A stretch of 64,000 bases of DNA, from positions 1,302,001 through 1,366,000 of the forward strand of contig NZ_CP047897.1 of the NCBI RefSeq assembly GCF_009913235.1, in the 5' to 3' direction. The stretch's first letter is position 1; each line of letters begins with the position of its first letter. Positions 15,055-56,260 of this stretch are shown piece by piece. Position numbers and translations under genes: made by a program. Origin of the DNA: Nibribacter ruber (GTDB lineage: Bacteria; Bacteroidota; Bacteroidia; Cytophagales; Hymenobacteraceae). Below the pieces are notes generated by a model. That model did no database searches. It saw only the letters and a program-made list of their open reading frames with translations, and was not told the origin of the DNA.

Positions 15055-15068
15055 GTGACATTTGTCAC
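15055..15068. promoter_or_regulatory. Crp/Fnr-type operator 1 (autoregulation)
   Basis: Perfect palindrome GTGACATTTGTCAC. It ends 22 bp before a -7-like box CACCTTTG (15091-15098), which puts its centre near -41 as in class II activation. It precedes the regulator gene itself. Confidence 0.75.
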
Positions 15069-15234
15069 CTACCTTGTCCCTAGAAGAGGCCACCTTTGCC
15101 CAAGCCTTCCCTCAATGCAAGCGTGCCAGGAAGCGTTGAAGAATTGCGGCGGCAATCCAATGAGGATTGCGCCCTGGTACACGCCCGCAAGTAAAAGAAG
15201 CACGTACTCTTTTAGACCAACCACTTTCTTGACC

Positions 15235-15882
15235 ATGAACCAAGACACCATCAGTCTCATTCAACAGAAGTTTCCGCAGTTTGAACCGGCTTTGCTGCAA
15301 GAAGTGATACAGGCGGGCGTCATCAAGCACCTGGAGCCCGAGGACGAGGCCCTGCGCACGGGTCAGTTTTTGACGTCTAATGTTTTGGTGCTAGATGGCC
15401 TGGTGAAAGTCTACCGCGAAGACGAGGAAGGCGACGAGTTCCTGATGTACTACCTGGAGAGCGGCAGCGCCTGCGCCCTGTCCATGATGTGCACCGCCCG
15501 CAACGAGCAGAGCCAGGTCATGGCCAAGGCCGTCACGCCCTCGGCGGTGCTTATGATTCCGGCGCACGTCTCTGAGTTGTGGCTGGCCAAATACCCCAGC
15601 TGGCATACGTTCATCATTGCCTCCTACCGTGCCCGTTTTGACGAACTGCTCCAGACCCTGGACAGCATCGTGTTCAAGGGCCTGGACGAGCGTCTGGTCT
15701 TCTACCTCAAACGCCATCAGAAGGTGATGGGCAAGGAAGTGCGCCTGTCGCACCAGCAGATCTCCGAGGAGCTCAACACCTCCCGCGAGGTCATCTCCCG
15801 GCTCCTCAAAAAACTGGAGCAGACGGGGGCCGTGGTGCTGCACCGCAACTTCATTGAAATAATTAATCTGAACCTATTCTAG
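15235..15882 (+). CDS. Crp/Fnr-family transcriptional regulator, two-cysteine type
   Basis: 215 residues from the ATG at 15235; the longer frame from 15055 begins inside the operator, upstream of the inferred transcription start, and is rejected. Residues ~20-130 form a cyclic-nucleotide-binding-like sensor; ~150-210 form the Crp helix-turn-helix with recognition helix TSREVISRLLKKLEQ, whose E-x-x-S-R pattern is that of Fnr. There is no N-terminal Fe-S cysteine cluster. The only cysteines are Cys80 and Cys86 in the sensor, close enough to form a di- or polysulfide bridge. Matching operators stand before this gene and the next sulfur genes. A sulfide or persulfide signal is inference. Confidence 0.85.
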   Translation: MNQDTISLIQQKFPQFEPALLQEVIQAGVIKHLEPEDEALRTGQFLTSNVLVLDGLVKVYREDEEGDEFLMYYLESGSACALSMMCTARNEQSQVMAKAVTPSAVLMIPAHVSELWLAKYPSWHTFIIASYRARFDELLQTLDSIVFKGLDERLVFYLKRHQKVMGKEVRLSHQQISEELNTSREVISRLLKKLEQTGAVVLHRNFIEIINLNLF

Positions 15883-15886
15883 GTAT

Positions 15887-15900
15887 GTGACAATAGTCAC
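15887..15900. promoter_or_regulatory. Crp/Fnr-type operator 2
   Basis: GTGACAATAGTCAC, 22 bp upstream of the -7 box TACCTTTG at 15923-15930. It starts just 4 bp after the regulator's stop and serves the TauE/SafE gene. Confidence 0.75.
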
Positions 15901-15959
15901 TGTACCCGCCTGGCTCCTGCTCTACCTTTGTATTGTTCATTCACCAACCTCCCCAAGAA

Positions 15960-16751
15960 ATGGAAATACTAGGATACGCGGCGGCATTGTTAATCGGGAT
16001 TTCCCTGGGACTTACGGGAAGCGGCGGCTCCATTCTGACGGTTCCTATTCTGGTCTACCTCATCGGCTTGACGCCGGTCACGGCCACCGCCTATTCCCTG
16101 TTCGTGGTAGGGTCCACCAGCCTGGTGGGGAGTTTTAAGATGTACCGCAAGAAGCTGGTGAGCTTTAAAACCGCGCTGGTGTTTGGCATTCCCTCTCTGC
16201 TGACCGTGCTGTTCACGCGCGCCTTTGTCATCCCGGCCATTCCAGACACGCTCTTCACCGTGGGCGCGTTTACGGTCACCAAAGACATCATGCTCATGGT
16301 TCTTTTTGCCGTCTTAATGGTGGCCGCCTCCTATAGCATGATTCATAAAAAGAAATCCAAATCCCCTAAGGAGACCGCCGCAGAAATCCGCTACCTGCCG
16401 GTGATGGGGCAAGGCATGCTGGTGGGCCTCATCTCTGGTTTGGTGGGCGCCGGGGGCGGGTTCCTGATCATTCCGGCGCTGGTGCTGTTCACGGGCCTGG
16501 AGATGAAGCTGGCGGTGGGCACCTCGCTGTTCATCATCGCGGCCAACTCTCTGTTCGGTTTCCTGGGCGACGTTCTGCATTCCCATATTGACTGGGTCTT
16601 CCTGCTGGCCTTCTCCTCCCTTTCCATCGCCGGCATTTTCATAGGCACGGCCCTGTCCACCCGAATCGACGGCGAACGTCTCAAGAAAGGCTTCGGCTGG
16701 TTCATTCTAGCGATGGGCGTGTACATCATCGCCAAAGAGCTCTTCTTTTAA
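15960..16751 (+). CDS. TauE/SafE-family sulfite/organosulfonate exporter
   Basis: 263 residues. The frame opens at 15933, but the -7 box at 15923-15930 would put the transcript start near 15937, so the ATG at 15960 (MEILGYAAALLIG) is chosen. About eight hydrophobic segments are visible. The two family repeats are seen as GISLGLTGSGGSILTVPIL (near the N-terminus) and GLISGLVGAGGGFLIIPAL (near residue 160). The family exports sulfite, sulfoacetate and related anions across the inner membrane. Next to a persulfide dioxygenase, export of sulfite or thiosulfate is a reasonable inference. Confidence 0.85.
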   Translation: MEILGYAAALLIGISLGLTGSGGSILTVPILVYLIGLTPVTATAYSLFVVGSTSLVGSFKMYRKKLVSFKTALVFGIPSLLTVLFTRAFVIPAIPDTLFTVGAFTVTKDIMLMVLFAVLMVAASYSMIHKKKSKSPKETAAEIRYLPVMGQGMLVGLISGLVGAGGGFLIIPALVLFTGLEMKLAVGTSLFIIAANSLFGFLGDVLHSHIDWVFLLAFSSLSIAGIFIGTALSTRIDGERLKKGFGWFILAMGVYIIAKELFF

Positions 16752-16775
16752 TTTATCTCAAGAACCTGGCCCTGT

Positions 16776-16789
16776 GTAACCTAAGTCAC
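16776..16789. promoter_or_regulatory. Crp/Fnr-type operator 3
   Basis: GTAACCTAAGTCAC; the right half-site is perfect and the left half is degenerate. It is 22 bp upstream of the -7 box TACCTTTG at 16812-16819, before the persulfide dioxygenase gene. Confidence 0.7.
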
Positions 16790-16853
16790 TGACCAGACCT
16801 TTCCTGGCCTGTACCTTTGTACTATAAATTTCAACCACCAAAAACAAAACACC

Positions 16854-18266
16854 ATGTTAGTAGAACAAATATATACCGGCTGTCTGGCGCAAGGCGCCTA
16901 CTATGTAGAAAGCAACGGCGAGGCCGTGATCATTGACCCGCTCCGCGAAACCCAGCCCTACCTGGACAAGGCCGAAAGCCGCCGCGCCAAGATCAAATAC
17001 GTCCTGGAGACCCACTTCCACGCCGACTTCGTGAGCGGCCACGTGGATCTGGCCAAGGCCTCGGGCGCGCAAATCGTTTTTGGGCCCAACGCCGAGACCA
17101 GCTATGAGGCCTACATTGCCCAAGACGGCGAAGAGTTGAAGGTAGGCGATGTGACCATCCAAGTGCTGCACACCCCCGGCCACACCATGGAATCTACCAC
17201 CTATCTCCTGAAAGACGAAAACGGCAAAGACTACGCGCTCTTCTCCGGGGACACCCTGTTCATTGGAGACGTGGGCCGTCCAGACCTGGCCGCCAAGTCT
17301 GAGTTAACCCAGGAGCAACTGGCCGGCCACTTGTTTGATTCGCTTAGAAACAAGATCATGCCCTTGGCGGATGACGTGCTGGTGTACCCCGCGCACGGCG
17401 CGGGCTCTGCCTGCGGAAAGAATATGAGCAAGGAGACCTTTGACACCCTGGGCCACCAGAAGGAAACCAACTACGCACTGCGCGCAGACATGACCCGCGA
17501 GGAATTCGTGAAGGAAGTGACAAACGGCCTTACCCCTCCGCCCAGCTACTTCCCGCTCAACGTGCAAATGAACAAGCAGGGCTATGCCAACATAGCCGAC
17601 GTGCTGGAGAAAGGCCTGCAGGCCCTGAACCCCGAGGCGTTTGAGGCGGCCGCCAACGAGACCGGCGCTTTGGTGCTGGACACCAGAAAGCCGGAGGACT
17701 TCGCCAAGGGCTTCATCCCCAACGCCGTCAACATCGGCATTGACGGAAACTTCGCACCGTGGGTAGGCACCTTGATCCCAGACATCAAGCAGCAGATTCT
17801 GCTAGTGACGGAAGAGGGCCGTGAGGAAGAGGTAGTGACCCGTCTGGCGCGCGTAGGCTATGACTACACCATCGGGTATCTGCAGGGCGGTTTCAATGCC
17901 TGGCAAGCCGCGGGTAAGGAGACAGACGCCATCGCGTCCATCTCGCCGCAGGAGTTTGAACAGCGCTACAAGCGGGACGGCAACTTAAAAGTAGTGGATG
18001 TGCGCAAGCCCAGCGAGTACCAGTCTGAGCACGTGGAGACCGCCAGCAACGCCCCCCTGGATTACCTGAATGACTATCTGGCAGAAATCCCGAAGGACCA
18101 GCAAGTGTACCTGCACTGCGCCGGCGGGTACCGCTCCATGATTGCGGCCTCCATCCTGAAAGCCCGGGGTTATGACAACCTGGTGAACGTGCAGGAAGGC
18201 TTCAAGGGCATCTCGGGCACCAGCGTGCCTAGAACCGCCTTCGTGTGCCCTTCTACCCTTAAGTAA
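16854..18266 (+). CDS. persulfide dioxygenase-rhodanese fusion (CstB-like)
   Basis: 470 residues in three domains. Residues 1-~240 are a metallo-beta-lactamase fold of the ETHE1 type, with iron ligands in THFHADFVSGH (His54, His56, Asp58, His63), HTPGHT and the hallmark DTLFIGDVGRPDL. Residues ~255-355 are a rhodanese fold lacking the catalytic cysteine (LVTEEGREEE in its place). Residues ~365-470 are an active rhodanese with Cys422 in HCAGGYRS. This order is that of Staphylococcus CstB, which turns low-molecular-weight persulfide plus O2 and sulfite into thiosulfate. Cytoplasmic; own promoter and operator upstream. Confidence 0.88.
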   Translation: MLVEQIYTGCLAQGAYYVESNGEAVIIDPLRETQPYLDKAESRRAKIKYVLETHFHADFVSGHVDLAKASGAQIVFGPNAETSYEAYIAQDGEELKVGDVTIQVLHTPGHTMESTTYLLKDENGKDYALFSGDTLFIGDVGRPDLAAKSELTQEQLAGHLFDSLRNKIMPLADDVLVYPAHGAGSACGKNMSKETFDTLGHQKETNYALRADMTREEFVKEVTNGLTPPPSYFPLNVQMNKQGYANIADVLEKGLQALNPEAFEAAANETGALVLDTRKPEDFAKGFIPNAVNIGIDGNFAPWVGTLIPDIKQQILLVTEEGREEEVVTRLARVGYDYTIGYLQGGFNAWQAAGKETDAIASISPQEFEQRYKRDGNLKVVDVRKPSEYQSEHVETASNAPLDYLNDYLAEIPKDQQVYLHCAGGYRSMIAASILKARGYDNLVNVQEGFKGISGTSVPRTAFVCPSTLK

Positions 18267-18337
18267 GTAAAAAGTCCAGCGCCCACGTTCATTCATTGTC
18301 TTGGGTGCTGGCACTACTTACCAACAATTTTGCCAGC

Positions 18338-18351
18338 GTGACATAAGTCAC
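18338..18351. promoter_or_regulatory. Crp/Fnr-type operator 4
   Basis: GTGACATAAGTCAC, 22 bp upstream of the -7-like box GACCTTTG at 18374-18381. It heads the rhodanese/YeeE unit; the leader that follows contains palindrome copy 3. Confidence 0.75.
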
Positions 18352-18436
18352 TGAACCAGGGACCCAGAACCCCGACCTTTGTACCATAAATTGAAACAGT
18401 CAGGTGATACGCATCTGAGACAAAAAGAAATATCGT

Positions 18437-18474
18437 CGTTTTTGGGCTGATTTTAAGGAAACAGGCTAAAAACG
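18437..18474. repeat. 38-bp palindrome, copy 3 (inside a 5' leader)
   Basis: CGTTTTTGGGCTGATTTT / AAACAGGCTAAAAACG, moderately diverged. It sits between the promoter at 18374 and the rhodanese start, so it would be transcribed in the 5' leader. Confidence 0.75.
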
Positions 18475-18497
18475 AACAAGACAGACAAAACAAAAAA

Positions 18498-18520
18498 GGG
18501 CCGGCCTTGTGGCTGGCCCA
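18498..18520 (+). promoter_or_regulatory. GC-rich leader hairpin
   Basis: GGGCCGGCC / GGCTGGCCC with a TTGT-type loop (one mismatch), 26 bp before the rhodanese start. It is not followed by a T-tract, so a role in transcript stability or translation is more likely than termination. Confidence 0.4.
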
Positions 18521-18545
18521 AACTAACTTAAAAAGACAGACAGCC

Positions 18546-18872
18546 ATGTTTAACTTATTTAAATCAGCCCCTAAGAACTACCAAGACTTAGACGGCAAAG
18601 CTTTTAAAACAGCCTTTACGCAAGCCGGTAAAACCGAACTGTTGGACGTGCGCACTTCTGGAGAGTTTGCCTCTGGCACCATTCCGGGCGCTAAGAACCT
18701 GGACGTCATGTCTTCTGGGTTTGCAACCGCCATTGCCCAACTGGACAAGGACAAGGAATACTTCGTCTTCTGCCGAAGCGGCAACCGCAGCGGTACTGCC
18801 TGCAAACAATTAGCTGCCCTGGGCCTGAAGGCCTATAACCTAAAGGGCGGCGTGGGGGCCTGGCCCCGGTAA
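18546..18872 (+). CDS. single-domain rhodanese
   Basis: 108 residues from the ATG at 18546 (MFNLFKSAPKNY); the frame is open to 18507 but the added residues are not family-like. The active-site loop is FCRSGNRSG with Cys76; VRTSGEFASGTIPGAKNLDV is the typical rhodanese entry segment. It transfers sulfane sulfur between thiosulfate or persulfides and thiols. No signal peptide is seen, so it is cytoplasmic. It starts the unit driven by operator 4 and lies 53 bp before the first YeeE half. Confidence 0.88.
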   Translation: MFNLFKSAPKNYQDLDGKAFKTAFTQAGKTELLDVRTSGEFASGTIPGAKNLDVMSSGFATAIAQLDKDKEYFVFCRSGNRSGTACKQLAALGLKAYNLKGGVGAWPR

Positions 18873-18925
18873 TTCAAAAATAGTAACCACAGAAGCGAAC
18901 CCACTTCTTTAGAAAGACTTACAAT

Positions 18926-19483
18926 ATGTTAGAAATACTCAGTCAGCCCTGGCCTTGGTACGTGTCTGGGGCGGTGATTGCCCTGATCATGGTCATCATG
19001 CTCTTCTTCGGGAAGTCTTTTGGCTTTTCCTCCAACCTGCGGGTGATCTGCGCGGCCTGCGGGGCCGGCAAGAAGGTGCCGTTCTTCAACTATAACTGGA
19101 AAAACCAGCGCTGGAACCTGCTGTTTCTGGTAGGTGCCATTCTGGGCGGTTGGATTTCCTCTACCTTCCTCTCTACTGGTGAGACCGTGCAAATCTCCCA
19201 GGCCACCATCCAGGACCTAAAACAGTTGGGTTTCTCTGCGCCGCAGGGCATGCAGCCTCAGGAGTTGTTCGGAATGGAGTCGCTGCTCAGTTTCAAGACC
19301 ATTGCACTGCTATTGGGCGGCGGTCTGTTGATTGGCTTCGGCTCACGGTATGCAGGAGGCTGTACGTCTGGGCACGCCATCAGCGGCTTGTCAAACCTGC
19401 AGTGGCCGTCTTTGGTAGCGGTGATTGGCTTCTTTATTGGCGGCCTTATCATGACGTTCCTGCTGTTCCCGCTTATTTTTTAA
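18926..19483 (+). CDS. YeeE/YedE-family transporter, first half
   Basis: 185 residues with about five hydrophobic segments. The signature GFGSRYAGGCTSGHAISGLS carries the conserved cysteine of the family; a second pair of cysteines stands in ICAACGAG. YeeE moves thiosulfate through the inner membrane by relaying it between conserved cysteines. In many Bacteroidota the transporter is split into two adjacent genes, as here. Import of thiosulfate or sulfane sulfur is known for the family; direction here is inference. Confidence 0.85.
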   Translation: MLEILSQPWPWYVSGAVIALIMVIMLFFGKSFGFSSNLRVICAACGAGKKVPFFNYNWKNQRWNLLFLVGAILGGWISSTFLSTGETVQISQATIQDLKQLGFSAPQGMQPQELFGMESLLSFKTIALLLGGGLLIGFGSRYAGGCTSGHAISGLSNLQWPSLVAVIGFFIGGLIMTFLLFPLIF

Positions 19484-19519
19484 CCCATACTCTCTTTAAA
19501 GACAGAAAGACATAGCCTT

Positions 19520-19933
19520 ATGAAAGGACTTAAATTTATAGTGACGGGGATCCTCTTCGGGATTGTGATGAGCAAGTCTGAGGCCATCTCCTGGTACCGC
19601 ATCCAGGAGATGTTCCGGTTCCAGTCGTTCCACATGTACGGCATCATCGGGACGGCCGTCATCCTAGGCGTCATTGCCGTGTACCTGATCAAAAAATACC
19701 AACTACGCGACTACCAGGGCAATCCCATCACGTTCACGCCCAAGGAGAAGTCGGTTCCCAGGTACCTGTACGGGGGCATCATCTTCGGGTTGGGCTGGGC
19801 GCTGGTGGGTGCCTGTCCAGGGCCGCTGTTCGTGAACCTGGGCTACGCGTACTGGCCCATCCTGATCGCCATCTTCGGCGGCGTGGTGGGCACCTACCTG
19901 TACGGCGTCCTCAAAGACCGACTGCCTCACTAA
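19520..19933 (+). CDS. YeeE/YedE-family transporter, second half
   Basis: 137 residues with four hydrophobic segments. It contains the partner signature FGLGWALVGACPGPLFVNLGYAY with the conserved cysteine. It begins 36 bp after the first half and presumably pairs with it in the inner membrane. The start MKGLKFIVTGILFGIVMSKSEAIS is typical of the family. Confidence 0.85.
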   Translation: MKGLKFIVTGILFGIVMSKSEAISWYRIQEMFRFQSFHMYGIIGTAVILGVIAVYLIKKYQLRDYQGNPITFTPKEKSVPRYLYGGIIFGLGWALVGACPGPLFVNLGYAYWPILIAIFGGVVGTYLYGVLKDRLPH

Positions 19934-19942
19934 TCTCTTTTC

Positions 19943-19980
19943 CGTTTTTGGCCTGTTTTCATGAAAACAGGCCAAAAACG
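19943..19980. repeat. 38-bp palindrome, copy 4
   Basis: Nearly perfect: arms CGTTTTTGGCCTGTTTTC / GAAAACAGGCCAAAAACG around AT, extended by one C/G pair on each side. It is 10 bp after the YeeE stop and 38 bp before the MFS gene. Confidence 0.9.
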
Positions 19981-20018
19981 GTTTACTTTGACCATGGTTC
20001 TATGACGTTTCACTTTCT

Positions 20019-21272
20019 ATGAATGCCCTCCCTGAAACAAGACTTGGCTTAAAAGAAAACGCGCTGCAGTTCTGGCTGCTGGTACTGGTAAACGGGTTTG
20101 TGGGTGCCATGGTGGGCCTGGAGCGATCCGTGATTCCTGAGTTTGCCGAAACCGTTTTTAACCTGAGCGGGCATACGGCCTTGCTGTCCTTTATTGTGGC
20201 GTTTGGGCTGGCCAAGTCGTTTGCCAACCTCATGATGGGCAATTTGGCTAAGCGATACTCCCGCAAGCAGCTATTAACGCTGGGTTGGTTATTTGCCTTG
20301 CCCGTGCCGTGGCTCTTATTCTACGCCGAGAGTTGGAGCTGGGTCATCTTCGCCAACGTGCTGTTGGGCCTCAACCAGGGTTTAGCCTGGTCTTCTACGG
20401 TGGTCATGAAAATTGACCTGGTAGGTGAAAAGAACCGCGGGTTGGCCATGGGCATCAATGAGTTTGCGGGCTATCTGGCCGTGGGGCTGGTGGCGTTTCT
20501 GGCGGGCTACATTGCCTCAGAAACCGGCCACGTGACCTACGCATTTCTACCGGGCATCGGGTTTTCTATTCTAGGGTTGCTGCTCACCATCTTTCTGGTG
20601 AAAGACACCAAATCGCACGCCAGAACCGAAGCCGCGCAAACCAAGATTCCGTTGCTCTCTAACATCTGGCAAGACACCACCTGGCGGCATGGCAACTTGG
20701 GCTCGGTGACCTTGAACGGCTTTGTCAACAACCTCAACGACGGCATTCTCTGGGGACTTTTACCTGTATTGCTGGCGTCTAAAGGCTATTCGCTGGCACA
20801 GACTGGACTTTTGGCGGGTATCTATCCGGTGGTCTGGGGATTGGGGCAGTTGGTGACGGGCAAGCTAGGCGATGTGTACTGTAAAAAGCAGTTGCTCACG
20901 CTGGGAATGGTCTTGCAGGGCGTGGCCATTGGCTTATTGTTGCTGGCGGGCAGCAGTCCGGTACTTGTGACGGCTTTGGTTTTGCTGGGTGCTGGCACGG
21001 CCTTGGTGTACCCTAATTTCCTGAGTGTGGTGGCTGAGAACACGCATCCTTCGCAAAGGCCGCAGAGCCTGGGCATCTTTAGGTTCTGGCGAGATTTCGG
21101 CTACGTGGCCGGAGCCGTGGCGGCAGGCGTGTTCAGTGATTTGTTTGGCTTAGATGCAGTGCTGCTGGGCACGGCGGCATTAACCGTTGGGGCCGGCGTT
21201 CTGTCTGAAGTGCGCATGTGCTGTACTAAGAAAACGCTGTGGCCAAGCCAAGTTTGCACTTCGGCTCAATAA
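20019..21272 (+). CDS. MFS transporter
   Basis: 417 residues with twelve predictable membrane segments. The loop between segments 2 and 3 reads GNLAKRYSRKQLLTLG, matching the MFS G-x-x-x-D/R-R-x-x-R-K pattern, and GKLGDVYCKKQLLTLG is its copy in the second half. It starts 86 bp after the second YeeE gene, beyond a palindrome. The substrate is unknown; the neighbourhood suggests a sulfur oxyanion or a toxic anion. No operator-like site was found directly in front. Confidence 0.8.
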   Translation: MNALPETRLGLKENALQFWLLVLVNGFVGAMVGLERSVIPEFAETVFNLSGHTALLSFIVAFGLAKSFANLMMGNLAKRYSRKQLLTLGWLFALPVPWLLFYAESWSWVIFANVLLGLNQGLAWSSTVVMKIDLVGEKNRGLAMGINEFAGYLAVGLVAFLAGYIASETGHVTYAFLPGIGFSILGLLLTIFLVKDTKSHARTEAAQTKIPLLSNIWQDTTWRHGNLGSVTLNGFVNNLNDGILWGLLPVLLASKGYSLAQTGLLAGIYPVVWGLGQLVTGKLGDVYCKKQLLTLGMVLQGVAIGLLLLAGSSPVLVTALVLLGAGTALVYPNFLSVVAENTHPSQRPQSLGIFRFWRDFGYVAGAVAAGVFSDLFGLDAVLLGTAALTVGAGVLSEVRMCCTKKTLWPSQVCTSAQ

Positions 21273-21326
21273 AAAAGAATAAAACGAGTTAATAGAAATA
21301 GACCGCGTTCACAGGCGAAAGAATAT

Positions 21327-23516: not shown

Positions 23517-25178
23517 ATGATTCATCTCAAAATAAGAAACTATATCACCAGCCTCTTTTTATTGGCGACAATGGGCGTGATCTATTCTTGCCAGACGCAG
23601 CCTCAAAAAAGCGCTGCCACAACACCTGCCCATAATGGCGTAGAAACCATTACCATCTTGCAGACCGCTGACATCCATGGCCAGTTGCTACCGCACCAGG
23701 AGTTCTTTATAGAAAACGGCGAGTTTGTCTTTAAGGAGCGCGGCGGCGTGGCCCACATCCAGACCATTTTCAACCAAGTAAAAACAGAAAACCCAAACGG
23801 CACTGTGATTGTTGACGGCGGCGACCTGATTCAGGGAAGTGCCGTGGCGGCTTTGTCTGAAGGAAAAGTCTTCGGGCCGGTCATCAGCGCCATGTCCTAT
23901 GACTTTTTGATTCCGGGAAACTGGGAAGTCATCTTCGGGAGCCAGAAAATGCAGGCGGTGCTCAAATCCTACAACAAGCCTGTAGTCTGCGCCAATATTT
24001 ATGACGAAGCCTCTTCTAACATACTGTACCCGCCTTACATCATCAAAGAAGTGAAGGGCGTGAAGTTGGGCTTTATCTCTTACAATGACCCCGAAGTGCC
24101 CATCCGCCAGAACCCGGGTTTCAGTAAAGGATTACTTTTCAAACAACTGGAAGAAAATCTTCAGCCGCTTATTAAGGAATTGAAGGAGGTACAGGAAGTA
24201 GACATTCTGTTTCTGGTAACGCACTTGGGCATCTCTAAGCAGATATACCTGGCAGATCAGGAAGAGATAAAGGGTGTGGACTTTATTCTGGGCAATGACA
24301 CCCATGAGCGCATAAGACAGCCTCTGAAAAGAAAGTACGCGCAGGTGGTGGAACCGGGAGCCTTCGCGTCCTTTGTGGGCAGATTGGACTTGGACGTGAA
24401 GAATGGCAAGATTGTAAGCCAGCGCTATGAACTCATTGACGTTGACCCTGCCAAATTTCCCGCCGACCCAGCCGTCCAAAAAGTAGTGGATGCCCAGATG
24501 GCTCCCTACAAGCAAAAGATGGACCGGGTGCTGGGTTACACGTCTACGCCCCCTTACCGCTATCTGGTGGTGGAGAACCCCATGGACAACATGATTACGG
24601 ACGCTCTACGCGAAAGAACCGGCGCGGACATTGCCATCTCCAACGGCTTTAGGTTCAGTACACCCATTGTGCCCGGCGCCTCAGGAACAGCCCCCATCAC
24701 CTACAGCGACCTTTGGAACATGCTCCCTGTGAATGAGAACGTAAAAACCGCCAAGGCAACGGGTAAGCAGATACAGGATTGGATGGAGCAGGAGTTGCAC
24801 AACGTCTTCGCAGAGAAGCCATTGGAGCGGTTTGGCGGCTGGGTCTTGCGCTTTTCTGGCATGAAAATGACCTTTAACGCCAACGCTCCCAAAGGCCAGC
24901 GGGTACAGAGCATAATCGTGGGCGGCCAGCCGTTAGACCCAGCCAAACTTTATACTCTAGCCGCCTGCCGGCGAACCGGCGAGCCAGATCACATGCTCTG
25001 CCGCCTGCCAAACGCCCAAGATCCTCAAGTGATGAAGTACACGGTGCATGATGTGTTGGAGGATTACTTAAAAAAGCAGGGTACCGTGGCTCCAAAGGTA
25101 GATGGCCGAGCCCAAGCCCTGGATTTGCCCTCCCCCGTGCTGTCCCAATTGCCAAACGTTGACTATGAGTTCAGGTAA
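23517..25178 (+). CDS. SoxB-like / 5'-nucleotidase-family metallophosphoesterase lipoprotein
   Basis: 553 residues. A lipoprotein signal ends at GVIYSC (Cys25). The N-terminal dimetal domain shows TADIHGQ (Asp52, His54), DGGD (Asp100-Asp103), VTHLG and GNDTHE; the C-terminal 5'-nucleotidase domain spans ~340-540. The motif that is GNHE in 5'-nucleotidases reads GNWE here (residues 134-137), so the catalytic histidine is replaced by tryptophan. A tryptophan at this place is, as I recall, typical of the thiosulfohydrolase SoxB. With persulfide and thiosulfate genes upstream, a SoxB-like hydrolase is plausible, but no SoxYZ carrier is in the window. Confidence 0.7.
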   Translation: MIHLKIRNYITSLFLLATMGVIYSCQTQPQKSAATTPAHNGVETITILQTADIHGQLLPHQEFFIENGEFVFKERGGVAHIQTIFNQVKTENPNGTVIVDGGDLIQGSAVAALSEGKVFGPVISAMSYDFLIPGNWEVIFGSQKMQAVLKSYNKPVVCANIYDEASSNILYPPYIIKEVKGVKLGFISYNDPEVPIRQNPGFSKGLLFKQLEENLQPLIKELKEVQEVDILFLVTHLGISKQIYLADQEEIKGVDFILGNDTHERIRQPLKRKYAQVVEPGAFASFVGRLDLDVKNGKIVSQRYELIDVDPAKFPADPAVQKVVDAQMAPYKQKMDRVLGYTSTPPYRYLVVENPMDNMITDALRERTGADIAISNGFRFSTPIVPGASGTAPITYSDLWNMLPVNENVKTAKATGKQIQDWMEQELHNVFAEKPLERFGGWVLRFSGMKMTFNANAPKGQRVQSIIVGGQPLDPAKLYTLAACRRTGEPDHMLCRLPNAQDPQVMKYTVHDVLEDYLKKQGTVAPKVDGRAQALDLPSPVLSQLPNVDYEFR

Positions 25179-49723: not shown

Positions 49724-49975
49724 CTAGCTGGCCTGACGGTACTGCTGCATCTCTATGATGTGGGCAAAATCATCCAGCGTGAACACCGGCAGATCATCTG
49801 TGATCTCCACGCCGTATTTCTTCTCCACTTCCAGAATGATGTCTACCACGTCCAGCAGTTCCAGGCCGTGCTTTTCCAGATGGGGCTGGCGGAGTAATTG
49901 AAAGGTTTCCAGGTTTTTGAGGTCACTGATCAGACAGGCAACATCATAGCGCAGTCTGTTGGTATAGGAGTCCAT
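49724..49975 (-). CDS. acyl-carrier-protein-like protein without the phosphopantetheine serine
   Basis: 83 residues from the ATG at 49975 (MDSYTNRLRYDVACL); a longer frame to 50056 has no support. The segment HGLELLDVVDIILEVEKKYGVEITDD aligns well with helix II of acyl carrier proteins (D-S-L-D-x-V-E-L-V-x-x-L-E-x-x-F-x-I-x-I). The serine that carries the phosphopantetheine arm is a leucine here, and no serine is close by. It may be a carrier-fold protein with a structural or regulatory role. It stands alone, with no fatty-acid or polyketide gene nearby. Confidence 0.6.
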   Translation of the reverse strand: MDSYTNRLRYDVACLISDLKNLETFQLLRQPHLEKHGLELLDVVDIILEVEKKYGVEITDDLPVFTLDDFAHIIEMQQYRQAS

Positions 49976-50154
49976 ACTCGTATAGATTAGGGGTAAAGGA
50001 TAAGCGCAAACCTTGGTAGTTGCAGGACAGAATCTACCCGTTGTTTGACGATGCAAAAATACGCCCTAAATAATTGTCTACATGCATACTACATGATACC
50101 CTTTAATATACCTGATATCCTTCTTCTGCCCAGATTGACCTCAACAAAAAATGC

Positions 50155-50192
50155 CGTTTTTGGCTTGTTTTCCAGGAAACAGGCCAAAAACG
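50155..50192. repeat. 38-bp palindrome, copy 13
   Basis: CGTTTTTGGCTTGTTTTC / GGAAACAGGCCAAAAACG; beyond the stop side of the glutathione peroxidase gene. Confidence 0.85.
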
Positions 50193-50222
50193 GCTGATGC
50201 GGTTTGAGGTATGGCTAACTTT

Positions 50223-50816
50223 CTATTTTCTACCCTGCAAAGCCTGTTGCACTTCGGGTCCCAGCGGTGAAATGGCCGGCCCGAAGTAATGTGTCAGGAC
50301 GCCGTTTTCATCCAGCAGGTACTTGCTGAAGTTCCAGTCGGGTTGGTGTTGGTTCCAGCCGTTCTGGCCGGGGTCTGAGAGCCATTGGTACACGGGGTGC
50401 TGGCCTGGGTTTTTCACCACTACGCTCTTCTTGGAAAGTGGGAACGTGACGCCGTAGTTTACCTGGCAGAACTGCGAAATGGTTTGGTCATCGTCTTTCT
50501 CCTGCTCCTTGAAATCATTGGCCGGAAACCCGATGATCACCAGATCGTCCTTCTTTTCTTCCTGCAACTTCTGCAGTTCTTCATACTGCCCGGTGTAGCC
50601 GCAGTTGGAGGCCGTGTTCACCAGCAGCACCTTCTTGCCTTTGAGGGCACTGAAATCCATTGGCTGGCCGTTGTTGAGCACCGTGCCTAAGCTGTAGAAG
50701 GGCTGCACGGGCGCCGCATTCTTCTCATTCTGCAACACCGTTCCGTTCTTGGTGCTCTTGCTCAGTTTCATGATGAGCGGGTACAGCAACTTCATTATTT
50801 TCTTTCGCATACTCAT
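50223..50816 (-). CDS. glutathione peroxidase family protein
   Basis: 197 residues; the catalytic domain follows a basic N-terminal extension of ~38 residues that may act as a membrane anchor or an uncleaved signal. The peroxidatic cysteine is in LVNTASNCGYTGQY, and the tryptophan motif is PDWNFSKYL. The place of the catalytic glutamine reads GFPANDF, with Asp where Gln is usual (a substitution I recall from other Bacteroidota). These enzymes normally use thioredoxin rather than glutathione. A MarR-type regulator lies 150 bp upstream in the same direction. Confidence 0.85.
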   Translation of the reverse strand: MSMRKKIMKLLYPLIMKLSKSTKNGTVLQNEKNAAPVQPFYSLGTVLNNGQPMDFSALKGKKVLLVNTASNCGYTGQYEELQKLQEEKKDDLVIIGFPANDFKEQEKDDDQTISQFCQVNYGVTFPLSKKSVVVKNPGQHPVYQWLSDPGQNGWNQHQPDWNFSKYLLDENGVLTHYFGPAISPLGPEVQQALQGRK

Positions 50817-50857
50817 AAGGGGTATAACCTAAAAAAGACCAAAGAGTTTAAGCAAGT

Positions 50858-50895
50858 CGTTTTTGGCTTGTTTTCTGGAAAAGAGGCTAAAAACG
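50858..50895. repeat. 38-bp palindrome, copy 14
   Basis: CGTTTTTGGCTTGTTTTC / GAAAAGAGGCTAAAAACG; between the MarR gene and the peroxidase gene. Confidence 0.85.
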
Positions 50896-50966
50896 ACCTC
50901 GGTCCAGGTAAGATAAAACAGTGGTATTTCCAGCAGCTAATTCAGCTTTTAACAGACAAGAGGCTT

Positions 50967-51419
50967 TTAAGCAATCTGTTGTTTTACGTTCTCCTGTATG
51001 TTCTTGAACACGTCCAGGCTGGATTGCAGTTCTTCTGATGTACCGCTCAGGGCCACCATCTGGTACATCTCTTCCAACCACGGCTGAATCATGGCAGAAA
51101 GGTCTTTGCCGGCGGGCGTTAGGGTGATGAGCTTGTTTCGGCGGTCCTGGCTGTCCTCGGTGCGCTGCACCAGGTTGCGGCCCACCAGGTTGTCAATGAG
51201 GTACGTGAGGCTGGCTTTGTCTTTAATGATGGCGTCTGCAATCTCCTGCTGGTTCCCACTTTCCTTTTCCCACAGAAACCTGAGCACCTGCAGCATCTCA
51301 AACGTGATATTGATGTTGTGGGCTTTGAATTTCTGCCGCATAAATCCTTTCAAGGTCTGCGTCACTATAGACATCTGCCTCAGGAATTTAATGGCGTTCT
51401 CACGGTCAGAAGGCTGCAT
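50967..51419 (-). CDS. MarR-family transcriptional regulator
   Basis: 150 residues. The winged helix is seen as FEMLQVLRFLWEKESGNQQEIADAIIKDKASLTYLIDNLVGRNLVQRTEDSQDRRNKLITLTPAGKDL, with the D-x-R-x-x wing typical of MarR. No cysteine is present, so it is not an OhrR-type thiol sensor. It precedes the glutathione peroxidase gene, which it may control. Confidence 0.88.
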   Translation of the reverse strand: MQPSDRENAIKFLRQMSIVTQTLKGFMRQKFKAHNINITFEMLQVLRFLWEKESGNQQEIADAIIKDKASLTYLIDNLVGRNLVQRTEDSQDRRNKLITLTPAGKDLSAMIQPWLEEMYQMVALSGTSEELQSSLDVFKNIQENVKQQIA

Positions 51420-51639
51420 AGCGGTAGTAGAGTTTGAAAGAAAACGCAGGCAAAAGGCACAACAATCACCCTTTGCGAGATATTACTATTTACAGGCAAA
51501 AATATACAATAACGCCAACAATGCGCCAGTTTTAAACAGCCAATTTGCTCTAGCCTCTCTGCGGCGGAAACAAGGAACAATAAATGACCGTTTGGCAAAC
51601 CCGCCTCATAGCCACAACACGCGCGTTACTTTCATGTTT

Positions 51640-51677
51640 CGTTTTATGCGCAATTCCTGGACAACAGGCTAAAAACG
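51640..51677. repeat. 38-bp palindrome, copy 15 (diverged)
   Basis: CGTTTTATGCGCAATTCC / GACAACAGGCTAAAAACG; the right arm is close to consensus, the left has decayed. Between the MarR gene and the small basic protein. Confidence 0.6.
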
Positions 51678-51784
51678 ATGTCTCCCCATTGCTGGCATCC
51701 AATAGATGAATATGCCGGTCTATATAGGAAACTCTCCTTTTACGGCCTCGTTTTAAAACAGATAGACCACTAAACTGAACGCAT

Positions 51785-52057
51785 ATGAAAAAGCTCACAA
51801 GCATAGGGTTAGCAATTGGATTTGCCTTGAGCATGGGGGCCGCTCCCCTGGCCGCGCAAGACACCACTCATGTAAAGAAAACCAATAAAGAGCGTGCCAA
51901 GACCGGAACGCACCAGGTAGGCCATGGCACCAAAGAGGTAGGCAAAGGCACTAAAAACGTGGTGGTGGCCGGCGCCAAAGCCACCGGCAAGGGTGCCAAG
52001 AAAGCCGGTAAAGCCGTAAAGAAGACCGTTAAAAAAGGCGTTGACAAAGTAGATTAA
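51785..52057 (+). CDS. small exported lysine/glycine-rich protein
   Basis: 90 residues. The signal peptide is clear (KKLTSIGLAIGFALSMGAAPLAAQ). The mature part is a run of short units such as GTKEVGKGTKN, GAKATGKGAKK and AGKAVKKTVKKGV, very basic and similar in composition to histone H1 tails. No family recognised. It could bind anionic surfaces, DNA or lipid A, or be a structural envelope peptide. It is a single gene closed by a strong terminator. Confidence 0.65.
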   Translation: MKKLTSIGLAIGFALSMGAAPLAAQDTTHVKKTNKERAKTGTHQVGHGTKEVGKGTKNVVVAGAKATGKGAKKAGKAVKKTVKKGVDKVD

Positions 52058-52064
52058 ATTTTCC

Positions 52065-52121
52065 CCTTTAAAAGGAGAGGGCGCCCGCAGAATAGATGCG
52101 GGCGCCCTCTCCTTTTAAAGG
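52065..52121. terminator. bidirectional terminator, 25-bp perfect inverted repeat
   Basis: Arms 52065-52089 and 52097-52121 with loop GAATAGA. It lies between the small basic protein and the convergent CDF gene, 8 bp and 15 bp from their stops. Confidence 0.88.
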
Positions 52122-52135
52122 CAAGCAACCGTGCT

Positions 52136-53098
52136 TTATTTTTCGCCGGTGGTCTCCGGAATCTCCCGTACCGGCATTATCACAAACTCTTCAATGCGCC
52201 AGGACAGGTCTTCTACCTCCTCCCCTAACTGGTTTAAGTTCTCTACCAGGTCCTCATCTGAGGTAGGCACCACGTAGGCTTCCCCCAAATACACGTGACC
52301 TTCTTCGCGCATTCTAAAGACATGTTCTTTTACCCAATCTTGTTTCTTAAGTAATGCGTCAATCTTATCCAGCAGGGGATCTTTTTTCTGCTCTTCCACG
52401 GTTTTGGGTTGCTCGTCCATCAAGTCAAAAACGGCCTGCTTGAGGTTGGTGAACCCGTCTTTGATAATGTCCAGGGAGATGATGAGGGCCGCTACGGCAT
52501 CTGCCCACCAAAAGCCTAAGCCAATGCCTGCAATGCCCAGAATGGCGGCCAGGCCGGTCATCCAGTCGGCTTTGTTCATTTCGGCGTCAGTGAACAGGTT
52601 CTTTTCATGCAGCTGTTTGGCCAGCGGCAGTTTCATGTGACCCAGAATGACGGGCGGCACGGAGCCATACACCAGGGCCGCCATCATCACGTAGCCCAGC
52701 CAGATCTCATGACCGAAGATAACGGCTATGCCGATGGTGGGGTGCTCCTGTTTGATCAAGGTCATGGAGGAGTCGATGATTAAGAAGGCTCCCACCGCAA
52801 ACAGGGCCAGGGAACTGCACAGGTAGGCAATGCTCACCACCCGGTGGTACCCGTACGGAAAATCCTTGTTGGGCTTCTTATGAAACACCCGGGAGGCGAT
52901 CAAAAACGAAATGGAGGGCGTGAGGCTGAGCGCGTCTTCAAACCAGGCGGTTTTCATGGCCTGTGAGTTGCCCATGGTAAAGAACATAAGGGCCGCCGCC
53001 GAGATGAGGTAGAAGATGGTGATCCACTCCAGGCGTTTAGCTTTCTCAAAGGCGGGCTTCAACTCCTCCGGATATTCAAAGCTATTGAGGGGTTGCAT
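52136..53098 (-). CDS. cation diffusion facilitator family transporter
   Basis: 320 residues with six hydrophobic segments. FEDALSLTPSISFLIASRVFHKKPNKDFPYGYHRVVSIAYL is the typical second-segment region with its Y-G-Y-H-R motif; ADWMTGLAAILGIAGIGLGFWWADAVAALIISLDIIKDG carries the fifth-segment aspartates. A soluble C-terminal domain (~225-320) follows. CDF proteins export divalent metals such as Zn, Fe or Mn by proton exchange. The start overlaps the stop of a solute-binding-like gene by 17 bp, an unusual partner. Confidence 0.85.
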   Translation of the reverse strand: MQPLNSFEYPEELKPAFEKAKRLEWITIFYLISAAALMFFTMGNSQAMKTAWFEDALSLTPSISFLIASRVFHKKPNKDFPYGYHRVVSIAYLCSSLALFAVGAFLIIDSSMTLIKQEHPTIGIAVIFGHEIWLGYVMMAALVYGSVPPVILGHMKLPLAKQLHEKNLFTDAEMNKADWMTGLAAILGIAGIGLGFWWADAVAALIISLDIIKDGFTNLKQAVFDLMDEQPKTVEEQKKDPLLDKIDALLKKQDWVKEHVFRMREEGHVYLGEAYVVPTSDEDLVENLNQLGEEVEDLSWRIEEFVIMPVREIPETTGEK

Positions 53099-53573
53099 GG
53101 CCGTAGCGGGTTTTAAGTGAGTCTTCTTTTTGGTGCAGGTATTTCTCTAGTTTGGTGACAAAGGCGTTTTCACCCATCACCACCCCAAATACATGCTTTT
53201 TCTTGCCCTGTTCCAGGTAAGGACGGGTAAAGGAGATTTTACTTTTCCAGGGAGAGTCATCTGTGAGGCCGGCCAGTACCAAATGCAACTTCTTTTCCTC
53301 CAGTTCCTCCAGGAGGTTCTGCTCGGTGTCTCGTTTCCAGGTGATCTGGGCTTGTATGGTCTTGGCGAAGCCTCTTACCAGGTCTGCCTCCACCCCGCCA
53401 GGATGGCCGTTGGGGCCCAGCGTGACCCAGGGCGGGTTTTCTGAGTAACCCACCACCAGCGTGCCTCCCGTTACCTGGGCCAGGGTGTCATTGGGGTCTT
53501 TGGGATAATTCTCACAACCGGCCAGCAGCCAGCAGAGACAGAGGAGAAGGGGTATTTTCCAGACTTTTTGCAT
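53082..53573 (-). CDS. half-size family-3 solute-binding lipoprotein
   Basis: 163 residues from the ATG at 53573, giving a lipobox LLAGC. The domain begins GTLVVGYSENPPWVTLGPNGHPGGVEADLVRGFAK and has AGLTDDSPWKSKISFTRPYLEQGK, the first lobe of amino-acid-type binding proteins. The second lobe is essentially missing, compared with ~240 residues in full members. It overlaps the CDF transporter gene. No ABC permease or ATPase is present. It may be a degenerate receptor, or an accessory to the CDF pump. Confidence 0.7.
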   Translation of the reverse strand: MQKVWKIPLLLCLCWLLAGCENYPKDPNDTLAQVTGGTLVVGYSENPPWVTLGPNGHPGGVEADLVRGFAKTIQAQITWKRDTEQNLLEELEEKKLHLVLAGLTDDSPWKSKISFTRPYLEQGKKKHVFGVVMGENAFVTKLEKYLHQKEDSLKTRYGHATPQ

Positions 53574-53715
53574 CACGTACACAGGTTAAGAGTGGGCCTT
53601 CCCTCAGAAATTTCTTTCCAGTGCAGCCTATCCTGCTAAACAATTTCTGAAGAACGCTGTTAGTACGCAGCATTTTGCCCAATGTTATTTTACCGCCAGT
53701 TGGGCTCATAAGCAA

Positions 53716-53765
53716 ACCCGCCGTTTTTAGCCTGATTTCTGGAAAACAGGCTAAAAACGGCGGGT
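53716..53765. repeat. 38-bp palindrome, copy 16, with extended flanks
   Basis: Core 53722-53759, arms CGTTTTTAGCCTGATTTC / GGAAAACAGGCTAAAAACG. Flanks ACCCGC and GCGGGT continue the pairing to 50 bp. Between the solute-binding gene and the copper ATPase. Confidence 0.9.
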
Positions 53766-53788
53766 CAAGCAAGAGGGCTTTCTATGGG

Positions 53789-56191
53789 TTACAGACCGGC
53801 TCTTCTGGCGGCTACCTTCACAGACAGTACGGCAAAAGAAATCACGCTCAAGGTGCTCACCGGCATGAGAATGGCAGACACGATAGGCGAAAACTCACCC
53901 ATCACGGCCAGCGTCAAGCCAATGATGTTGTAGACAAAGGACACCCCGAAGGCGGCCAGAATCAGGCGGCGGCTGGTTTTGGAGAACTTCAGGAAATGCC
54001 CCAGCCGGGCCAGATGGTTGGCCTCCAGAATACCGTCACAAGATGGCGAGAAACCGTTTACCTGGTCAGTTAAGGCTAAGCCCACGTCACTCTGGCGCAG
54101 CGCCCCGGCATCATTCAGACCGTCACCCACCATAATAGGCGACTGGCCTTTCTGCTTCAGTTCCTGGATGTACTCCAGCTTTTGCATGGGGCTTTGGTTG
54201 AAGCGCATGTCGGCGTCCGGCCCGAAGATGGCTTGCAACCTTTCCCGCTCGCTGTCATTGTCACCGGAAAGGACGGCCAGTTTTCTGGTCTTGCCCAGTT
54301 CCTGGATTAATTGCGGCAAGCCGTTGCGGTACACGTTCTCAAACACATAATAGCCGCGTGCTTTCTTGTTGAAGGCCACATACACTTTGGTTTGCTTGGC
54401 AGAGGCATCCTGGGTGTCTACGGGGGCGCCCACCCACGCGGCAGAACCTATTTCCACCAGGTTGTCGGCCACGCGGCCAGAAAGCCCGGCCCCGGTTTTT
54501 TCCAGGAAGTCCAGAACCGGCAGCGGCTTGGCGTCTACGTGTTGGTAGAGGCGCTGGCTGAGCGGGTGTGTAGAGTGCTTGAGCAGGGATTTGATCTGCC
54601 GGGTTTCTTCTTGAGAAAGCGCATCGCCGTGATAAGTGATCTGCGAAGCGCTGGGCTCTGTAAGCGTGCCGGTTTTGTCAAACACAATGGTGTCTGCCTT
54701 GGCCAGGGCCTCTACCACGGCGCTGTTTTTGAGGTAGAACTTATGCCTTCCAAAGATGCGCAGCGTTGCGCCCAGCGTGAACGGCGTGGCCAGAGACAGC
54801 GCGCACGGGCAGGCAATCACCAGCACAGAGGTGAACGCCTTCACGGCCATGTCTGTGTCTCTGGGCACCCAGTACCATAGCGCACCCGCCGCAATCAGCA
54901 ACGTTACAGATAGGAAGTACTTGCCCACCGCGTTGGCGTAATTCTCTACGGTCTGGGTTTCTTCTTTCTTGTAGTTGGCGTTGTTCCAGAGTTGGGTTAA
55001 ATAGCCCTGTGATACTTCCTTGATGACTTCCAGTTCCAGACCTTCGCCCAACTGCCGACCACCGGCATAAATGACTTCGCCAGCGTTTCTCACCACCGGC
55101 ACAGACTCACCGGTCACAAAGCTGTAGTCAATGTTGGCAGAACCGCGCAAGAGCACCGCGTCTGCCGGAATCAATTCTTGGTTGCGCACCAGAATGCGCT
55201 GGCCTTTCTGAAGTTCTTTGACAGAAATGGGCTTCTCTTTTCCTTCCTCCAACACCGTCACGGCAATAGGAAAGTAAGAAGTATAGTCGCGGTCAAAGGC
55301 CAGGGAGTCATAGGTGCGGCGCTGCACGTACTTGCCAATGAGCATGAAAAATACCAGGCCGGTGAAAGAGTCTAAAAAGCCGGGGCCGCGGTGCGTAAGA
55401 ATGTCATACAAACTCACGCAGAACAAAGACAACAACCCAATGGCGATGGGCAGGTCCAGGTTAATCATGCGCTGCTGCAAACCCTGCCAGGCACTGGTGA
55501 AAAAGCCGCGGGCGCTGTATAAAAACACCGGCAAGGCCAGGGCAATGTTGATCCACCCGAAGAACTGGCCATACTCCTTCTGCAGGCCGCCAAAATACTC
55601 CGGAAAGCTCAGCATCATCACGTTGCCAAAGCAGAAGCCCGCCAGGCCCAGCTTGTAGTAAATGGACTTGTCTTTCTTGGGGGCCGGGGCCTCCATGTCT
55701 GCCAACGTGATTTGCGGTTCATAGCCAATGTGGGCCATGAGTTCCACCACCTGCGCCAGCGTGGTCACGCCGTGCTCAAACGTGATGGCGGCCTCCTTGC
55801 GCAGGAAGTTCACGTGCACGTCCGTAACGCCCGTGTTCAGGCGGTTCAGGTTTTCCAGGAGCCAGATGCAGGAGCTGCAGTGCATCTGCGGAATATGGAA
55901 AGTGATTTTGCTGACGGTGCCGTTCTGGAAGTCCAACAACTGTTGCTGCACTTTGGCGTCATTCAAATACGCAAATCGCGCTGACAGAACCGGGTCTTTC
56001 ACCGAAATACCAGGGCGTTCGTCCAGGGTGTAATAAGTGCAGAGATTGTTTTCGGCTAAAAGGGTATAGACCACTTTGCATCCTTCGCAGCAGAAGTCCT
56101 TGTCTTCATGGACAATGGGGGCTCCCTGGCATTCATCGCCGCAATGGTAGCAGGTGTGGAGGGCGGTCTCTAGATGTGCGGTCTGGAGCAT
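53789..56191 (-). CDS. copper-translocating P-type ATPase, CcoI/FixI type
   Basis: 800 residues. The N-terminus has the CcoI-specific cysteine-rich segment CYHCGDEC...FCCEGCKVVY, followed by a heavy-metal domain with MHCSSCIWLLENL. The membrane part holds ACPCALSLATP; the phosphorylation motif is DKTGT with Asp505; MVGDGLNDAGAL closes the hinge. CcoI-type pumps export copper needed for assembly of cbb3 oxidase. The usual cbb3 genes are not directly visible here. A Crp/Fnr-like site with the same 22-bp spacing as in the sulfur island precedes the gene. Confidence 0.92.
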   Translation of the reverse strand: MLQTAHLETALHTCYHCGDECQGAPIVHEDKDFCCEGCKVVYTLLAENNLCTYYTLDERPGISVKDPVLSARFAYLNDAKVQQQLLDFQNGTVSKITFHIPQMHCSSCIWLLENLNRLNTGVTDVHVNFLRKEAAITFEHGVTTLAQVVELMAHIGYEPQITLADMEAPAPKKDKSIYYKLGLAGFCFGNVMMLSFPEYFGGLQKEYGQFFGWINIALALPVFLYSARGFFTSAWQGLQQRMINLDLPIAIGLLSLFCVSLYDILTHRGPGFLDSFTGLVFFMLIGKYVQRRTYDSLAFDRDYTSYFPIAVTVLEEGKEKPISVKELQKGQRILVRNQELIPADAVLLRGSANIDYSFVTGESVPVVRNAGEVIYAGGRQLGEGLELEVIKEVSQGYLTQLWNNANYKKEETQTVENYANAVGKYFLSVTLLIAAGALWYWVPRDTDMAVKAFTSVLVIACPCALSLATPFTLGATLRIFGRHKFYLKNSAVVEALAKADTIVFDKTGTLTEPSASQITYHGDALSQEETRQIKSLLKHSTHPLSQRLYQHVDAKPLPVLDFLEKTGAGLSGRVADNLVEIGSAAWVGAPVDTQDASAKQTKVYVAFNKKARGYYVFENVYRNGLPQLIQELGKTRKLAVLSGDNDSERERLQAIFGPDADMRFNQSPMQKLEYIQELKQKGQSPIMVGDGLNDAGALRQSDVGLALTDQVNGFSPSCDGILEANHLARLGHFLKFSKTSRRLILAAFGVSFVYNIIGLTLAVMGEFSPIVSAILMPVSTLSVISFAVLSVKVAARRAGL

Positions 56192-56216
56192 AAGTTTCCT
56201 CAGTTAATGTACACTA

Positions 56217-56224
56217 CAAAACTA
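56217..56224 (-). promoter_or_regulatory. -7 box of the copper ATPase gene
   Basis: The minus strand reads TAGTTTTG, matching TAnnTTTG, 25 bp before the ATG at 56191. Confidence 0.55.
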
Positions 56225-56246
56225 CCGGGTGCGGGCCGCTCCAGAC

Positions 56247-56260
56247 ATGATGAAAGTCAT
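56247..56260. promoter_or_regulatory. Crp/Fnr-type operator 5 (weak)
   Basis: On the minus strand ATGACTTTCATCAT: the inner TGA and TCA are kept, other positions differ from GTGACA-TGTCAC. It ends exactly 22 bp upstream of the -7 box at 56217-56224, the same spacing as the four sulfur-island sites. A second look-alike core, GACATTTGTC, is at 56305-56314. Confidence 0.5.

Follow-up and report, generated by a model that had tools for sequence, protein, structure and literature searches.

In Escherichia coli, the class II position of CRP is -41.5, and class II activation involves contacts with RNA polymerase through AR1-AR3; the oxygen sensor FNR uses four cysteines for its [4Fe-4S] cluster. Among the Crp/Fnr proteins of Bacteroidota, HcpR and HcpR2 of Bacteroides and Porphyromonas recognize a GTnAC-N4-GTnAC palindrome; HcpR2 has GTAACnnnnGTTAC and a Pro at position 181 (PMC1274295, in excerpt), and the targets concern hcp genes and nitrosative stress rather than sulfur. 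Control of sulfide and persulfide genes through sensing cysteines is described for CstR, SqrR/BigR and FisR, which belong to other families (CsoR-like, ArsR and Fis-type activator; PMC9774590, in excerpt). A Crp-type protein of Acinetobacter baumannii is persulfidated in sulfide-treated cells; it is near CRP/Vfr, and its conserved cysteine lies opposite the ligand pocket (PMC7315123, in excerpt). Here we analysed a 64-kb stretch (the window; contig NZ_CP047897.1, positions 1,302,001 to 1,366,000) of the single-contig 4.35-Mb genome of Nibribacter ruber. A gene set at 15.0-20 kb of the window encodes a Crp/Fnr regulator (the 15235 protein, named after its first position), a TauE/SafE exporter, a persulfide-dioxygenase-type protein, a small rhodanese and two YeeE/Sulf_transp halves.

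The 15235 protein has a cyclic-nucleotide (cNMP)-binding beta-roll followed by a Crp-type winged helix, and thereby belongs to the Crp/Fnr superfamily. It resembles E. coli CRP in fold, in a TGA-core half-site with an outer G, in the residues Arg-Glu..Arg and in an operator centre at -41.5. However, it scores 38.5 bits against the CRP equivalog model NF008732 (cut-off 266 bits), appears to have cysteines at the ligand position, and is associated with the Bacteroidota -7 box instead of a -10 element. Its sole cysteines are Cys80 and Cys86, in contrast to the four of FNR. HcpR/HcpR2 are similar as Bacteroidota Crp/Fnr proteins with a comparable palindrome, but the 15235 protein has Glu at the CRP-181 position and its operator is GTGAC-N4-GTCAC. 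The closest solved structure by sequence, Eubacterium rectale EUBREC_1222 (PDB 3dv8; E-value 2.1e-28 in a search with an alignment), is 24% identical; its CLLSASC aligns with CALSMMC of the 15235 protein, so that it is also C-x5-C. Among named regulator loci, the nearest come from Rufibacter hautae, at 86% identity, and Rufibacter sediminis, at 84%.

We propose that the 15235 protein is a class II activator of a sulfide/persulfide detoxification regulon, likely sensing sulfane sulfur via Cys80/Cys86, and we give this reading a probability of about 0.72. A dimer of the protein would bind GTGAC-N4-GTCAC and act as a class II activator at sigma-A promoters, where an operator at -41.5 would substitute for the -33 element and the rigid 22-bp distance would reflect simultaneous contact with RNA polymerase. 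The regulon would comprise TauE/SafE, persulfide dioxygenase, rhodanese and YeeE genes, with thiol genes in single relatives. The signal would most likely be sulfane sulfur (persulfide or polysulfide), read by Cys80 and Cys86 at the place where cyclic-nucleotide sensors hold their ligand; we infer this signal from the gene content and the cysteine pair.

The preliminary description of this DNA had reported four palindromes, each ending 22 bp before a TAnnTTTG-like box and preceding the regulator, the TauE/SafE gene, the persulfide dioxygenase gene and the rhodanese/YeeE unit. Both the spacing and the target genes were read directly in the sequence. Three palindromes are exact and one has one mismatch; the boxes take the form [TGC]AnnTTTG, and exact TAnnTTTG occurs in only two of the four. 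The palindrome alone was rejected as evidence, its frequency being near background (25 window matches with up to two mismatches vs 19.7 expected). The composite of palindrome and box at up to one mismatch was found four times in the window at a gap of 22 bp and at no other gap from 15 to 30 bp, and 300 dinucleotide shuffles yielded no composite. The constant geometry is thus beyond chance, as had been claimed. A genome scan for the composite at the same stringency gave five matches in 4.35 Mb, four of which were the window sites. At up to three mismatches, 27 matches were found genome-wide vs 19 for a reversed-pattern control; because the control is nearly as frequent, three-mismatch matches, including one before ccoI, mean little alone.

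The case rests, beyond the four window sites, on the joint presence or absence of regulator and site in 150 family genomes. A regulator match (E-value up to 1e-20) was found in 69 of these. An exact palindrome followed by NAnnTTTG after 22 bp was present in 66/69 genomes with the regulator or a second subfamily of it vs 2/81 without (Fisher p 3.5e-36, a value that ignores the relatedness of the genomes), and 166 of the 169 exact-site matches fell in genomes with the regulator or second subfamily. The reversed pattern gave two matches across the 150 genomes. Within the genus of the window, the exact site was found in 11/11 genomes with the regulator vs 2/5 without. In the two exceptions that have the site without the regulator, G032 (L323) and G057 (L321), tblastn with E-values up to 1e-3 revealed regulator fragments only (residues 46-73 and 154-199), near a site, which looks like loss in progress. 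These apparent losses beside retained operators are perhaps useful as natural knock-outs. A plasmid search returned five records with relatives of the regulator, the best being 70% identical and from Pontibacter akesuensis; the records of four of these relatives are annotated, the protein being given a general name or called hypothetical, and the fifth record carries no annotation.

To describe the targets, 79 stretches around 80 relatives were fetched, which with the window made 80 family loci. These loci, like the genomes they come from, share ancestry; in some cases one genome contributes two loci. The gap was left free in spacing histograms, and the 22-bp gap was imposed in per-target, ccoI outer-base and target-cluster counts; genes that start no more than 300 bp from the end of a locus are left out of the per-target counts. 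Sites preceded TauE in 77/78 copies (window included), the main dioxygenase in 45/48, a second dioxygenase-like protein in 59/61, the small rhodanese in 42/63 and YeeE half 1 in 10/69. No family copy of the second YeeE half (0/69), of a major facilitator superfamily protein (0/38) or of a DoxX-like protein (0/32) had a site, as expected for genes inside operons or outside the regulon. The first genes after 312 sites were clustered; the sites came from the 80 family loci together with another 20 stretches, chosen from the matches listed because they hold an exact site. The clusters comprised 157 dioxygenase/rhodanese, 82 TauE, 17 methyltransferase, 13 YeeE, eight universal stress protein, six thioredoxin-reductase-like, five regulator, three thioredoxin and one peroxiredoxin genes. 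A 5'-nucleotidase/SoxB-like gene, a TlpA-like protein, a SoxA/TsdA-type cytochrome, an OprD porin and others had one to three sites each; the small clusters, which include a transposase, may reflect chance matches. The targets are chiefly sulfur genes, and the large clusters are sulfur-related. These findings, together with the co-occurrence of site and regulator, support the earlier proposal of one Crp/Fnr regulon spanning the TauE/SafE, persulfide dioxygenase and rhodanese/YeeE genes.

Cys80 and Cys86 are invariant in 81/81 family proteins (73 close orthologs including that of the window, and eight of the second subfamily). They are likewise invariant in 41/41 members of a wider, partly overlapping alignment, 25 of them from distant loci; this alignment omits the distant locus L237, which has a stop within its translation. 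A conserved cysteine pair of this kind is a mark of persulfide sensors, and a role of Cys80/Cys86 as a persulfide sensor is plausible. The second subfamily (L147-L153, L137), about 36-42% identical, has C-x5-CC with the same kind of neighbours and the same sites. The predicted structure is a Crp fold (mean predicted local distance difference test score, pLDDT, 87; predicted template modelling score 0.64), in which a short helix at residues 82-88 was taken for the ligand-binding-cassette helix; by sequence, the two cysteines would lie at the ligand-pocket position. The recognition helix, SREVISR, puts Arg, Glu and Arg at CRP positions 180, 181 and 185, and the Glu at the 181 position is invariant in 41/41. 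In the recognition code of PMC1274295 (in excerpt), position 180 reads the outer G and position 181 the core A; by this code the Arg-Glu..Arg residues fit an outer G with a TGA core.

The regulator and regulon may be as proposed while Cys80 and Cys86 sense general thiol oxidation, nitric oxide or a metal, with the sulfur genes forming one part of a response to thiol stress. A two-cysteine switch suits a disulfide as well as a sulfur bridge, and the thioredoxin, thioredoxin-reductase-like, universal stress protein and peroxiredoxin genes that follow some of the 312 sites in a few relatives would fit such a response. However, the near-universal targets (TauE, main dioxygenase and second dioxygenase) are sulfur-specific, and we regard this alternative as unlikely. 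More broadly, the protein might represent a class of sulfane-sulfur sensors within Crp/Fnr, in which a C-x5-C pair replaces an emptied cyclic-nucleotide pocket and class II activation is set off when the pair is bridged by persulfide or polysulfide. The class would extend across Bacteroidota and perhaps Firmicutes, given the C-x5-C of 3dv8; we advance this generalization tentatively, at slightly less than even odds.

The 22-bp distance was conserved across the family. In the 80 family loci, with the gap free from 5 to 45 bp, exact TAnnTTTG was found 22 bp from the palindrome 87 times (palindromes without mismatch) and 80 times (one mismatch), 167 in total, and every other gap occurred 0 or 1 time. 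A distant set was formed from 28 of the 80 named loci, those outside Rufibacter, Pontibacter, Adhaeribacter and Botryobacter; many of the named loci belong to the same family genomes. These distant loci, about 50-57% identical, are from Chitinophagaceae, Flavobacterium, Pedobacter, Aquirufa, Imperialibacter and others. A gap-22 site was present in 22/28 of them. With the gap free, exact boxes occurred eight times at 22 bp after one-mismatch palindromes, and after two-mismatch palindromes once at 13 bp and once at 23 bp. Across the phylum, a scan of 395 genomes that allowed any gap from 10 to 34 bp and counts sites whatever the binding protein gave 24 exact pattern matches in 19 genomes: 13 at 22 bp, four at 23 bp and seven at other gaps.

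The sigma-A box TAnnTTTG of Flavobacterium psychrophilum spans -12 to -5 (PMC9723704, in excerpt). Given the same box position here, each of the four operators has its centre at -41.5, at the fixed distance of a class II promoter, in agreement with the centre near -41 given in the preliminary description. In a column table of 281 sites, information is concentrated in three places, namely the palindrome, a TGA adjoining it and the box with its two following bases, with little between. This TGA (columns 14-16; G at 93%) is asymmetric: it adjoins the half-site nearer the promoter and has no counterpart beyond the other one. Of the two half-sites, the promoter-proximal GTCAC is also the better preserved.

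The same geometry bears on whether the regulator is instead a repressor that occupies the -33 region until persulfide releases it. CstR, SqrR and BigR repress, although FisR activates (PMC9774590, in excerpt), and the operator would span -48 to -35. A repressor needs no constant distance, however, whereas the gap is fixed at 22 bp, equivalent to the class II position, and the column table shows no conserved -33 element before the box, the TGA after the palindrome apart. We therefore consider repression improbable, and activation by the 15235 protein remains our preferred mechanism.

A weaker site before the CcoI-type ATPase gene had also been assigned to the regulon. Its 22-bp spacing was upheld; its membership was rejected, because its half-site differs and it is kept without the regulator. 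The site departs from the palindrome at three positions. A ccoI gene is present in 27 of the 31 family genomes tested, and TGA-N6-TCA at gap 22 was found upstream of ccoI in 26 of the 27. It was retained in 11/11 ccoI-bearing genomes without the 15235 regulator, and none of the 26 sites had the outer bases G..C. With the gap free, 24 ccoI sites were at 22 bp and one at 10 bp. As ccoI sites share the spacing, the 22-bp distance is not unique to the sulfur regulon. The TGA after the palindrome was also tried as a general -33 element, and was discarded since ccoI sites mostly have CTTTT there.

The ccoI site is most likely the target of a different Crp/Fnr protein, for which the candidate is a response-regulator/Crp fusion whose gene adjoins hemA and in some genomes lies near ccoI. 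The fusion protein is present in 29/31 family genomes, including all 27 with ccoI; it is at least 75% identical in 17 genomes and 46-51% identical in the other 12, and 10 of the 11 regulator-free ccoI genomes hold a copy only 46-50% identical to that of the window genome. Its recognition helix is SKETVIR, with Lys where the 15235 protein has Arg. In the window genome, the pattern scan placed sites before hemA (one mismatch) and a tryptophan-dioxygenase-like gene (two mismatches), and three-mismatch sites before globin and ccmB-like genes, although at three mismatches the control gives almost as many matches; the four gene names are from reading translations. From these sequences, the fusion protein looks like a respiratory/heme regulator with likely sites before ccoI and hemA, and perhaps globin and ccmB. 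The fusion-regulator locus is at genome C1:1381150-1382208 (minus strand; L257, L291), with L022 1501-1544 and window 56247-56260 also noted. That the sulfur-gene sites themselves are bound by another Crp/Fnr protein such as this fusion is very improbable: the window genome encodes seven cNMP-domain proteins and the 22-bp geometry is conserved at ccoI and also seen at the hemA site, but the fusion is nearly ubiquitous whereas exact sites track the 15235 protein or second subfamily (66/69 vs 2/81), and its Lys and the lack of G..C at ccoI sites set it apart.

Autoregulation, which had been predicted, proved not to be conserved. A site directly upstream was found in 0/72 other close orthologs and 0/28 distant ones; in the second subfamily, four of eight members have a site within about 275 bp upstream of their own gene. 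The window site lies 180 bp before the regulator start, and autoregulation in the window itself is possible. At L076 and L077 a site precedes a methyltransferase gene, which in turn precedes the regulator, an arrangement that makes indirect feedback possible. The second dioxygenase gene lies upstream of the regulator in many relatives. When 14851-15240 was compared with a few relatives by blastn and tblastx for a leftover second-dioxygenase promoter, only a dispersed repeat and short chance-like matches were found.

Several observations weigh against the proposal of a sulfane-sulfur-sensing class II activator. Confidence in the structural model is lowest at residues 81-90 (block mean pLDDT 63). 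By the rule used above, 6/28 distant loci have no gap-22 site, four of these having an exact palindrome with CACCTTCA at 22 bp, and the distant loci have sites before the main dioxygenase in 14/23, TauE in 4/20, YeeE in 1/20 and rhodanese in 0/9 copies; the regulon is thinner there or its sites are more degraded. Five of the 69 genomes with a match (G013, G027, G096, G114, G132) have the second subfamily only, at about 36-41% identity, so close orthologs are not alone in having the exact site. It is missing from three of the 69 genomes (G001, G007, G023); one-mismatch sites exist in their loci (L120, L134, L128, L135). The genome sample is phylogenetically non-independent, with one large genus (g6) having neither site nor regulator. 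Finally, the excerpt of the review PMC9774590 contained no Crp/Fnr persulfide sensor, and the sensing step is without citable precedent.

Neither the protein family nor the class II geometry nor the kinds of target enzyme are new in themselves. What may be new is a dedicated sulfide/persulfide Crp/Fnr regulator of Bacteroidota with a cysteine pair apparently in the ligand pocket. The literature matches listed, consisting of titles and abstract starts with subscription papers missing, included no such regulator and no Crp/Fnr control of persulfide dioxygenase or sulfide genes in Bacteroidota; this silence is weak support for novelty. For Bacteroidota, the regulator is a concrete, testable activator candidate for sulfide/persulfide detoxification, the sensors named in the excerpt of PMC9774590 being of other families. 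In this phylum, the 22-bp distance to the -7 box is shared by two groups of Crp/Fnr sites whose half-sites differ, so that it may also aid the finding of Crp/Fnr promoters.

Coordinates of the genes and predicted sites are listed below. For the TauE/SafE gene, the ATG at 15960 is a likelier start than the TTG at 15933, because the latter precedes the predicted transcript start.

Table 1. Genes, operators and promoter boxes in the window (positions are those of the window).
Feature	Position	Strand	Remark
Crp/Fnr family regulator, 215 aa	15235..15882	+	cNMP_binding and HTH_Crp_2; recognition helix SREVISR
TauE/SafE family exporter	15960..16751	+	TTG start at 15933 in the open reading frame list
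Persulfide-dioxygenase-like protein, putative function	16854..18266	+	metallo-beta-lactamase fold and two rhodanese stretches
Single-domain rhodanese	18546..18872	+	
YeeE/Sulf_transp half 1	18926..19483	+	
YeeE/Sulf_transp half 2	19520..19933	+	
Operator palindrome GTGACATTTGTCAC, regulator upstream region	15055..15068	+	position not conserved in relatives
-7 box CACCTTTG, one mismatch, 22 bp past palindrome	15091..15098	+	
Operator palindrome GTGACAATAGTCAC, before TauE/SafE	15887..15900	+	
-7 box TACCTTTG; predicted transcript start 15935	15923..15930	+	start placed from PMC9723704 (in excerpt)
Operator palindrome GTAACCTAAGTCAC, before persulfide dioxygenase	16776..16789	+	
-7 box TACCTTTG; predicted transcript start 16824	16812..16819	+	
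Operator palindrome GTGACATAAGTCAC, before rhodanese/YeeE unit	18338..18351	+	
-7 box GACCTTTG, one mismatch; predicted transcript start 18386	18374..18381	+	
CcoI site ATGACTTTCATCAT, 22 bp before TAGTTTTG	56247..56260	-	assigned to a different Crp/Fnr regulator

Near the cluster, at 23517-25178, the window encodes a SoxB/5'-nucleotidase-like protein, which scored 284.6 bits against the SoxB model, under the cut-off of 550; a 5'-nucleotidase/SoxB-like gene is preceded by a site in three other loci (L337, L338, L109). A 38-bp dispersed palindromic repeat (CGTTTTTGGCC...GGCCAAAAACG) is present in the 64 kb in nine strict and sixteen loose copies, the strict ones at 14296, 14884, 19943, 25225, 27722, 42723, 44894, 50155 and 56400.

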